A stretch of DNA of 12,089 bases, from assembly GCA_025353235.1 (NCBI GenBank), contig JANXQZ010000989.1, forward strand, positions 1-12,089, given 5' to 3'. The notes under the pieces were generated by a model, which was not told the DNA's origin, searched no databases, and saw only the letters and a program-made list of their open reading frames with translations. The translations under genes and the position numbers were made by a program. Source of the DNA: Bryobacterales bacterium. Lineage in GTDB: Bacteria > Acidobacteriota > Terriglobia > Bryobacterales > Bryobacteraceae. Of the stretch, positions 9,759 through 12,089 are shown in pieces (position 1 is the stretch's first letter; the number at the start of each line of letters is the position of its first letter).

Positions 9759-10672
9759 TGCCGGAGCTGCCAGACATCACGGTCTATCTGGAAGCTCTAG
9801 AGGCTCGAATCCTGGGTCAGCGGTTGGAACAAATCCGCGTCTCCACGCCATTCCTGTTGCGAACCACGCAGCCCGGGCCCGATCAGTTTGGCGGAAGATC
9901 GGTCGTCGGGCTCCGCCGCATCGGAAAGCGGATCGCGATTGGCGTGGACGGCGATTTCTGGGCGGTGCTGCATTTGATGATCGCGGGACGGCTCCACTGG
10001 CATCCGAGCGGCGGAAAGCAGCCGGGCAGGAATATCTTGGCGGTATTTGACTTTGCTTCGGGAGCGCTTTCGTTGACCGAAGCCGGATCGAGGAAGCGCG
10101 CATCGCTGCACCTGGTTCAAGGAGAGGATGGACTGCGCGCGATGGATCCCGGAGGCGTGGATGTTCTGAGCGCCGATCTGTCTGCCTTTGCTTCCGCTCT
10201 TACGGCCACGAATCACACGCTGAAGAGGGCGCTAACGGATCCTCGGCTGTTCAGCGGAATCGGCAATGCGTATTCGGACGAGATTCTGCATACCGCTCAA
10301 CTCTCGCCAATCGCCATGACGCAGAAGCTGAAGGTGGAGGAGATTGACCGGCTTTATGTAGCGACGCGCGCATCGCTAGCCGATTGGACGAATCGCCTGC
10401 GCACGGATGCGGGGGCGGGGTTTCCAGAGAAGGTGACGGCATTTCGGAAAGGCATGGCGGTCCATGGCCGGTATGGCGAACCTTGTCCCCGGTGCGAGAC
10501 TAAGGTCCAGCGCATCCGCTATGCCGACAACGAGACAAATTATTGCCCTAAATGCCAGACGGGCGGCAGGCTACTGGCGGACCGCGGTCTTTCGAGGCTG
10601 TTGAAGCAGGATTGGCCTCGAACGATGGAGCAGTTGGAATCTTTGGTGGCGGCCCATTCAGGAGGAAAATGA
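9758..10672 (+). CDS. mutM: Fpg/Nei-family DNA glycosylase (formamidopyrimidine-DNA glycosylase-like)
   Basis: The 304-residue protein removes oxidised bases and nicks the DNA. P2 and E3 in MPELPD are the catalytic N-terminus (the next residue is D, not the usual E). K57 in RRIGKRIAI is the conserved hairpin lysine. [12 protein letters not shown] (166-177) is the helix-two-turn-helix with N170. The zinc finger uses C243, C246, C263 and C266. After the finger there is a tail of about 38 residues ([15 protein letters not shown]...), longer than in E. coli Fpg. The ATG shares a base with the TGA of the monooxygenase gene, so translation is probably coupled. The last residues SGGK arise from an apparent one-base insertion compared with the duplicate tail at 11190. 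Enzyme activity should not depend on those last residues. Confidence 0.93.
10483..10660 (+). repeat. Direct repeat copy 1: zinc-finger and tail part of fpg
   Basis: This copy is paired with 11190-11367, exactly 707 bases downstream and with no gap. It covers codons 243-301 of the glycosylase, from the first zinc cysteine. It differs from copy 2 at 10 positions, all silent third-base changes. Nine of them fall in 10526-10573 and one is at 10657. Identity stops abruptly at the 5' edge (TTGTCCCC). Confidence 0.95.
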
Positions 10673-10773: not shown

Positions 10774-11181
10774 ATGCTGTCAAATCGCTCGATGCCGCGA
10801 AGCACGGTGCTTCCAGAACTCGCCTACCCGGACATTGGAGATGCGATTGAGAGGTTGTGCGAAGCCTTCGGCTTCACCCTGCGCATTCGCATTGCGAATC
10901 ATCGAGCTCAGCTAAACGTTGGCGATGGTGCAGTGATTCTCATCGAGGCTAACCCTAACGTCTCCCTAAAGGCGGCGGTGATGGTGAGAGTGGACGACGT
11001 CAATTCCCACTGTGAGCACGCTCGCCAGCGCGGCGTCAATATCGTTCGCGAGCCAACCGACTATCCCTACGGCGAACGGCAATATAATGCTCAGGACTTC
11101 GCGGGACACCATTGGTGCTTCTCGCAATCCATCGCTGACGTCGATCCTAGAAATTGGGGCGGCACGCCGGGCGACTTGTAA
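10774..11181 (+). CDS. VOC/glyoxalase-bleomycin resistance-like (PhnB-type) protein
   Basis: This 135-residue protein is a single-domain vicinal oxygen chelate fold. Typical features are VLPELAYPDIGDAIERLCEAFGF near the N-terminus (from about residue 12) and the late motif PYGERQYNAQDFAGHHW, followed by CFSQSIADVDP and WGG. The late segment is characteristic of small VOC proteins annotated as glyoxalase/extradiol dioxygenase-like. Metal ligands in this family are H/E residues; candidates are H42 or H43-region, E100-region and H114-H115, but the activity is unknown. The start could be 10774 or the ATG at 10792, just before the conserved part. A TAAAAT hexamer at 10759-10764 would give a nearly leaderless transcript. 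The gene lies between the two copies of the fpg tail. Confidence 0.8.
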   Translation: MLSNRSMPRSTVLPELAYPDIGDAIERLCEAFGFTLRIRIANHRAQLNVGDGAVILIEANPNVSLKAAVMVRVDDVNSHCEHARQRGVNIVREPTDYPYGERQYNAQDFAGHHWCFSQSIADVDPRNWGGTPGDL

Positions 11182-11189
11182 AGGGTCCG

Positions 11190-11367
11190 TTGTCCCCGGT
11201 GCGAGACTAAGGTCCAGCGCATCCGCTATGCCGATAATGAGACGAATTATTGCCCGAAGTGCCAGACAGGCGGGAGACTGCTGGCGGACCGCGGTCTTTC
11301 GAGGCTGTTGAAGCAGGATTGGCCTCGAACGATGGAGCAGTTGGAATCTTTGGTGGCGGCCCACTCA
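11190..11367 (+). repeat. Direct repeat copy 2 of the fpg tail
   Basis: Partner of 10483-10660: 178 bases, 168 identical, no gaps. Beyond 11367 the copies continue to resemble each other weakly. Removing one G from copy 1 after TCAG would let it read GENEPCREA and stop, against [12 protein letters not shown] and stop here. Confidence 0.95.
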
Positions 11368-11406
11368 GCAGAAAATGACTCGACAAGCTTGGTGGCCGAG
11401 GCTTAA
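11190..11406 (+). pseudogene. Headless second copy of the Fpg zinc-finger tail
   Basis: From TGT at 11191 the frame reads C-P-R-C ... C-P-K-C and the whole [15 protein letters not shown] tail. All 59 residues are identical to the intact glycosylase from C243 on, then [13 protein letters not shown] and a TAA. No start codon lies near its beginning; the first in-frame ATG (11332) is deep in the tail. It is not an independent gene. It has the same phase as the VOC gene, and the VOC stop (11179-11181) is only three codons upstream, so stop readthrough would give a VOC/zinc-finger fusion. The DNA differences from copy 1 are all synonymous. It lacks the catalytic N-terminus and helix-two-turn-helix and cannot be a glycosylase by itself. 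Confidence 0.9.
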
Positions 11407-11410
11407 TTCG

Positions 11411-11698
11411 TTACGAGACCAACTGATGATTGCGCAATTGCCGAAGATCGCCAAGGGCCTTTTCCGCGCTCTTGCGCAGCTCGGCTTCTGAAATCGCGAA
11501 TGCGGTGTTCTTTCCCTCCAGGCAATCCGGGGAATATGAATCTACATCAGAGAATAGCTTATCGAGTACTTCAAAGATCTTAGTATCCATTCCTCCCGGC
11601 TCTCTCTTGAACGTCCGCAGGAAGCGATCTTCGAATTCACTGGCAGAAATAGTCCTGGCAAGAAACGGTTCGATGAGCGCCTCATAGTCGGTTGTCAT
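11411..11698 (-). CDS. Colicin D-type immunity protein (self-protection family)
   Basis: The protein has 95 residues from the ATG at 11698. The frame can be extended to a TTG at 11719, but that overlaps the previous gene. GGAGG lies 11 bases before the ATG, inside the end of the toxin gene. The sequence TTDYEALIEPFLARTISASEFEDRF...FSDVDSYSP with a following SEAELRKSAEKALGDLRQL matches the pattern of the colicin-like immunity family: acidic, helical, and with the conserved FsDVDsYsPd segment. Family members bind and block the tRNase domain of colicin D-like toxins. The gene directly follows the colicin D-like gene by 7 bases. It is acidic, as expected for a protein that plugs a basic nuclease. 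Assignment is by motif memory, not by a search. Confidence 0.72.
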   Translation of the reverse strand: MTTDYEALIEPFLARTISASEFEDRFLRTFKREPGGMDTKIFEVLDKLFSDVDSYSPDCLEGKNTAFAISEAELRKSAEKALGDLRQLRNHQLVS

Positions 11699-11705
11699 AC
11701 TGACT

Positions 11706-12041
11706 CTATCCTCCACCAAGCTTTCCAGTAGTGGTCAATGCTCTCACTTGGTCAGCCGTCAACTCCCAGCCGGTGACAAAGTCTCCGTTCGTATCCATGA
11801 TGACATTTATATTCGTCAATGGATCAAATTTATGGATGACCTTGACGTTTCTGTACGTTCCATGAATTGTCTGCGTCGCAGGAGCCTCAACATGCCGCCT
11901 GAGAGCGGCCTCGAACTCGGTAGCATTTACGGGAGTATATGCGCCCTGCATGTCCGTCTCGGCGGGAGCAACCCGGTGCACTTTTGTGTTGTAGAAAATG
12001 AAAGCTAAGTACTGTCCCTGCTTCGCGGTATAAGCTTTCAT
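11706..12041 (-). CDS. Chimera: winged-helix N-terminus joined to a colicin D-like tRNase C-terminus
   Basis: The protein has 111 residues. Residues 33-111 follow the colicin D C-terminal nuclease pattern: FEAALRRHV (43-51), GTYR (61-64), VIHKFDPLTNINVIMDTNGDF (69-88) and T-G-W92, ending KLGGG. Colicin D cuts the anticodon loop of tRNA-Arg. Residues 1-32 (MKAYTAKQGQYLAFIFYNTK then PAETDMQ) instead resemble the start of a LexA/MarR-like winged-helix family, broken off where the rest of the helix-turn-helix should follow. The normal start of a colicin D domain, with the KxKHxxDFG segment and its catalytic histidine, is missing; H22 is the only histidine near that place. So the toxin is probably inactive or altered. 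The gene starts 23 bases after the ssb stop and ends 7 bases before the immunity gene. No Shine-Dalgarno is seen. Confidence 0.6.
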   Translation of the reverse strand: MKAYTAKQGQYLAFIFYNTKVHRVAPAETDMQGAYTPVNATEFEAALRRHVEAPATQTIHGTYRNVKVIHKFDPLTNINVIMDTNGDFVTGWELTADQVRALTTTGKLGGG

Positions 12042-12064: not shown

Positions 12065-12089
12065 TTAGAAAGGCACGTCGTCGTCGGTA
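12065..12089 (-). CDS. ssb: Single-stranded DNA-binding protein, last 7 codons plus stop (rest outside window)
   Basis: Reading in from the right edge on the reverse strand, the codons give T-D-D-D-V-P-F and a TAA. An acidic DDD(V/I)PF terminus is the conserved tip of bacterial SSB, which binds replication and repair partners (compare DFDDDIPF in E. coli). Only this tip is in the window, so the assignment rests on it alone. Confidence 0.7.

Follow-up and report, generated by a model that had tools for sequence, protein, structure and literature searches.

An open reading frame in an acidobacterial contig that joins a LexA-type winged-helix stump to a colicin D domain lacking its catalytic start

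By its sequence, the 111-residue open reading frame (ORF) at 12041..11706 on the minus strand, which starts with ATG, is a two-part chimera: the beginning of a LexA-type winged-helix protein is followed by a colicin D tRNase domain without its N-terminal catalytic segment, and one homology gives way to the other between residues 32 and 35, at about position 11945. The window, i.e., the whole stretch of DNA analysed here, comprises 12,089 bp and is the entire contig C177 of a 5.3-Mb assembly of 1247 contigs with a completeness of 89.5%; 144 bp separate the join from the contig end. We consider it likely that a colicin-D-type toxin tip was acquired together with its immunity gene, lost its 5′ end and was joined in frame to what remains of a repressor gene linked to ssb. 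A first-pass annotation had proposed both the two-part make-up and the position of the join, and both held up: residues 1–32 were recognized by a profile made from their winged-helix relatives, and residues 35–100 by Colicin_D. Homologues of the whole protein, which would have spoken against a chimera, were found in none of the genome, plasmid and phage searches run.

The winged-helix stump corresponds to codons 1–32 (MKAYTAKQGQYLAFIFYNTKVHRVAPAETDMQ; 11946..12041, minus strand) and was identified by similarity to relatives. The first-pass annotation had suggested separate profile searches for the two parts. For residues 1–32 alone, these returned no Pfam or NCBIfam family at E-values up to 1, an outcome that the annotation had counted as a refutation, but the relatives' own profile gave 49.9 bits, compared to 10.9 bits for the best of 2000 shuffles of the same residues (1965 of which gave any score) and −0.4 bits for residues 33–111. 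This profile contained 29 rows of at least 60 residues from 31 loci, two shorter rows having been dropped; 30 of the loci came from a search of 237 genomes of the family, and one more (L006) was added because ssb had already been seen there. Three relatives scored 24.6, 33.6 and 32.0 bits against LexA_DNA_bind (PF01726; cut-off 23.7). In a set of 61 genomes including this one, seven relatives had winged-helix genes that the N-terminus matched at E-values below 1e-3. Searched against plasmids, the whole protein matched 24 records; among the 20 matches listed, the alignments covered residues 2–69 at most, and what they matched was for the most part annotated as a MarR-type or SOS regulator, or else not annotated. 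The winged-helix relatives continue into the remainder of the helix-turn-helix, such as RYFKVSPPSVHQMVLTLE, which is missing from the window, and the ORF lacks a complete helix-turn-helix and wing. No 3′ part of the winged-helix gene was found elsewhere in the assembly or the window.

Upstream of the ORF are the last seven codons of ssb (TDDDVPF; 12068..12088, minus strand) and its stop codon; the gene runs off the contig. The same tail closes ssb in L007, with variants (DDDVPF/EDDVPF) in L006 and L011. That a winged-helix gene follows ssb in relatives, as the first-pass annotation had anticipated, is the case in some of them. An upstream ssb on the same strand was present in seven of the 30 winged-helix loci, plus L006, and within 200 bp of the winged-helix gene in three of 31; these counts are lower bounds, since no locus has more than about 1.5 kb of flank. 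The winged-helix query matched 34 of the 237 family genomes (this one and 33 others). The gene is partial, split or interrupted by a stop in L088, L091, G062, G240, G243, G254 and G260. With such a patchy distribution, and broken in several relatives, the LexA-type winged-helix gene seems to be lost often.

The junction itself falls on codons 33–34 (11940..11945, minus strand), where winged-helix similarity stops (residues 32–33) and before Colicin_D starts (residue 35); similarity to the profile of the winged-helix family ends at residue 33–35. Some alignments with single relatives cross the join at 34–40% identity, namely those with G037, G038 and G056 (residues 3–70 or 3–71), with a Vibrio plasmid (residues 2–69) and with L006. 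Since the profile does not extend past the join, and residues 35–100 have a Colicin_D match of their own, we read these as chance extensions. The frame is open across the join, which would occur by chance at one join in three and would also be expected of a selected fusion. The G+C content is about 0.50 on both sides, compared to 0.56–0.60 deeper in the contig. Scans for promoters and terminators gave results at chance level.

Colicin D cleaves the anticodon loops of tRNA-Arg. Codons 33–111 (11709..11945, minus strand) encode its tRNase domain minus the first 17 profile positions, as judged from Pfam, an alignment with PDB 1v74 and the predicted structure. In a Pfam search with the whole protein, residues 35–100 matched positions 18–82 of the 84 in Colicin_D (PF11429; E = 3.4e-12; 47 bits, cut-off 25). 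This was the sole Pfam family found, and the ORF held no other toxin domain. The NCBIfam model XcbA scored about 11 bits on the toxin part, far below its cut-off of 150, and was rejected.

Colicin D residues were placed via the 1v74 alignment, in which chain position 13 is presumably residue 603 and residue 40 of the ORF was taken as residue 627; with this numbering, K607, K608, H611, D614, S677 and W679 fall on the right letters. Winged-helix sequence takes the place of colicin D as far as about residue 619. Two papers bear on the residues concerned: one gives K607, K608, H611, D614 and S677 as essential (PMC3482391), the other includes K608, H611, S677 and W679 among six critical residues (PMC4964976). 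Four of the five essential residues, K607, K608, H611 and D614, fall in the segment that is absent here, in agreement with the earlier view that the catalytic part of colicin D is missing. By ungapped position only, one of these four is matched (K20 at 607), the others being V21 (608), V24 (611) and A27 (614). At the S677 position, where S or T is accepted, the ORF has T90, and W92 coincides with W679. The position of K680 is occupied by E93, and the [TS]xxK motif of colicin D tRNases, as given in PMC3482391, is not present, residues 90–93 reading TGWE. The ORF does not contain a complete colicin D domain with its N-terminal catalytic segment; a relative in a phage record matches Colicin_D from profile position 1 and reads KFKHASDFG there. 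Lacking the segment with the active-site lysine, histidine and aspartate, the fragment should not cut tRNA, and probably has no tRNase activity.

An AlphaFold2 model was made from an alignment of two sequences; alignments with mixed winged-helix and colicin rows were misaligned and were left out of folding. The model had a mean pLDDT of 63.4 and a pTM of 0.59. Residues 41–110, with block means of pLDDT 68–87, were predicted to form a helix, four strands and a helix. In Foldseek, colicin D chains ranked 1 to 5, with a best E-value of 1.8e-4 and TM scores of 0.52/0.56; the match to colicin D 1tfo (E = 1.8e-4) spanned 71 columns with an rmsd of 2.1. Rank six was a CDI toxin (E = 0.07). Residues 1–37 were under pLDDT 50 and predicted to be disordered, although the shallow alignment limits what such low confidence proves.

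The toxin part is followed by an intact-looking immunity gene of the colicin D type (11411..11698, minus strand), encoding 95 residues from an ATG at 11698. The product matches positions 1–87 of the 88 in Colicin_immun (PF09204; E = 8.4e-23), and a GGAGG lies 11 nt upstream of the ATG. Searched by sequence against the PDB, the immunity protein yielded no ImmD, only phosphoribosyltransferases at E-values of about 0.06. The bacilliredoxin model of NCBIfam matched at E = 6.9e-6, with 25.9 bits, far below the cut-off of 340, and was discarded. In colicin D, the immunity protein binds the active site. The gene may perhaps still provide immunity against colicin-D-type toxins.

Colicin_D was found in one of 237 genomes of the family (this one) and in two of 396 of the phylum (this one and G533), and Colicin_immun in one of 399 of the class (this one). 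Since this genome is the only one with Colicin_D among the family genomes searched and with Colicin_immun in the class sample, the module looks foreign. No second winged-helix/Colicin_D fusion turned up among the 237 family and 396 phylum genomes searched for Colicin_D, and the copy in the window is the only Colicin_D match in this assembly. A scan of genome contigs with the whole protein gave 60 stretches that fit the pattern, with no relative among them; a two-row Colicin_D alignment gave 275 stretches and one relative, the locus of which contains the G533 locus. In viral contigs, the two-row alignment found no relative (16 stretches), and the domain from the phage record found one (18 stretches). 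Against plasmids, the Colicin_D part alone gave weak matches to 48 records (E = 7e-3 for the best one listed), and most of the 20 listed carry a colicin D annotation; among phages, three records had E-values of 1 or lower, namely 4e-4 for one and 0.9 for the other two. The second acidobacterial copy, in the metagenome-assembled genome G533 (L027, 2782–3440), matches Colicin_D from profile position 22 only, adjoins the end of an Rhs core and precedes a small ORF that no Pfam family matched. We take this locus for a probable orphan tip whose immunity protein belongs to a different family. A literature search listed no paper that, by its title, dealt with a fusion of colicin D with a LexA-type protein, which is no proof of absence.

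Two further features were observed beyond the immunity gene. The 3′ end of mutM, with the zinc-finger codons, occurs twice, at 10483–10672 and 11190–11379, as 190-bp copies that are 94% identical. Of 61 codons, 12 differ, 10 of them synonymously; the differences being mostly synonymous, a diverged mutM under selection seems to be the origin of the second copy, and not decay in place. Between the two mutM ends lies a glyoxalase/VOC-like ORF (10774–11181; PF00903, E = 1e-9). In 23 mutM loci from relatives, flanks of about 1.5 kb were inspected for ssb and ybgC and for winged-helix, VOC and immunity genes, and none turned up. As even ybgC, which lies next to mutM on the upstream side here, is absent from these flanks, gene order is of no help in placing the insertion.

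The recombination history that we infer from the sequence would begin with the acquisition of a colicin-D-type tip and its immunity gene by an acidobacterial lineage. The tip would then have lost its 5′ end, and illegitimate (chance) recombination would have joined it in frame to codons 1–32 of the LexA-type winged-helix gene after ssb, from which it borrowed a start codon. If translated, the product would be a colicin D core with a floppy leader derived from the repressor. The immunity gene could be transcribed from the ssb side; immunity against the colicin-D-type toxins of neighbours would be the sole function left for selection, if any, to maintain. The main competitor, which we regard as unlikely yet deserving of serious attention, is an assembly artefact: the contig end would misjoin an ssb/winged-helix locus to a toxin-tip locus, or strains would be mixed, and no cell would carry the fusion. 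The closeness of the join to a contig end in so fragmented an assembly is in keeping with this, and a relative's ssb query, run without a positive control, did not find ssb in the assembly, even though its tail is present here. The near-duplicate of the mutM 3′ end, with its mostly synonymous differences, is likewise of a kind that strain mixing could give. Against an artefact, the terminal 144 bases have no copy in a second contig (best other match 28 bases, E = 1.24), and a search of the assembly brought up no further winged-helix copy (next match E = 2.34), leaving no visible repeat to drive a wrong join; the join is also in frame and the G+C content is alike on its two sides. The mutM duplicate, the single-copy contig end, the lack of a second winged-helix copy and the ssb result would fit either a real recombination or strain mixing in the assembly.

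Other explanations grant the fragment a function. The first-pass annotation had left the choice between a recombination scar that disarmed the toxin and an unusual DNA-binding/tRNase fusion; the former is supported, and the latter is not, given the missing remainder of the helix-turn-helix and wing, the predicted disorder of the leader and the absent essential residues. That the repressor part aims or regulates a working nuclease, with H22 replacing H611, strikes us as extremely improbable. The frame is open, K20 falls on the K607 position, and T90 and W92 are in place, but H22 itself is two residues off the position of H611. Its spacing to GTYR is 39, as previously counted, although colicin D has 36. 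The position of H22 is a histidine in 26 of the 28 winged-helix relatives in which it could be read; three more were unreadable by pattern, two with MQRFG (L089) and MLRFG (L090) and no histidine, and one with a match that lacks that part (L091). The most plausible origin of H22 is thus the repressor, and it is probably no substitute for H611, contrary to what had been entertained at first. The substitutions at K608, H611, D614 and K680 weigh against activity, a new active site would have to be present for the fusion to be active, and, with the rest of the DNA-binding domain missing, the fragment should not act as a repressor either. Very unlikely, too, is that the empty core was kept as a binding partner, i.e., a buffer or stabiliser, for the immunity protein and is co-expressed with it from the ssb operon. 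The core does fold in the model, and the immunity gene follows directly, with a good ribosome-binding site; the fusion, on the other hand, occurs in no relative in the family and phylum samples, and the missing segment belongs to the active site, to which the immunity protein of colicin D binds. Slimmer still is the chance that a dead core, co-expressed with the immunity protein and holding it, gives standing protection under the control of a DNA-replication gene. On the preferred reading of a disarmed, joined tip, the gene is an ordinary kind of leftover, i.e., a scar. Automatic annotation would call this fragment a colicin D tRNase. It is also an acidobacterial example of how a toxin tip can end up as a scar beside an immunity gene; were the fusion functional, its toxin architecture would be new, but the evidence speaks against this.

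The closest known system is the colicin D tRNase domain (PF11429; PDB 1v74, 1tfo), with which the ORF shares the alignment and fold of its second part and the adjacent Colicin_immun gene; it differs in the loss of the N-terminal segment and in having TGWE in place of SGWK. The small LexA-type winged-helix proteins resemble the ORF in residues 1–32 and, in some relatives, in their place just after ssb, but the remaining ≈45 residues of their domain are gone here. Orphan CDI/Rhs modules, as described in PMC3150448 and PMC3967940, similarly pair a detached toxin C-terminus with an intact-looking immunity gene of the matching family downstream, and detached tips whose immunity genes work are known from these papers. 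Toxicity was shown for the orphans tested there, which generally have no translation starts, whereas the fragment described here has lost its catalytic start and borrowed a start codon. An Rhs core was found in this assembly only on another contig (C646; L095), where one match is in an open frame and one has an internal stop.
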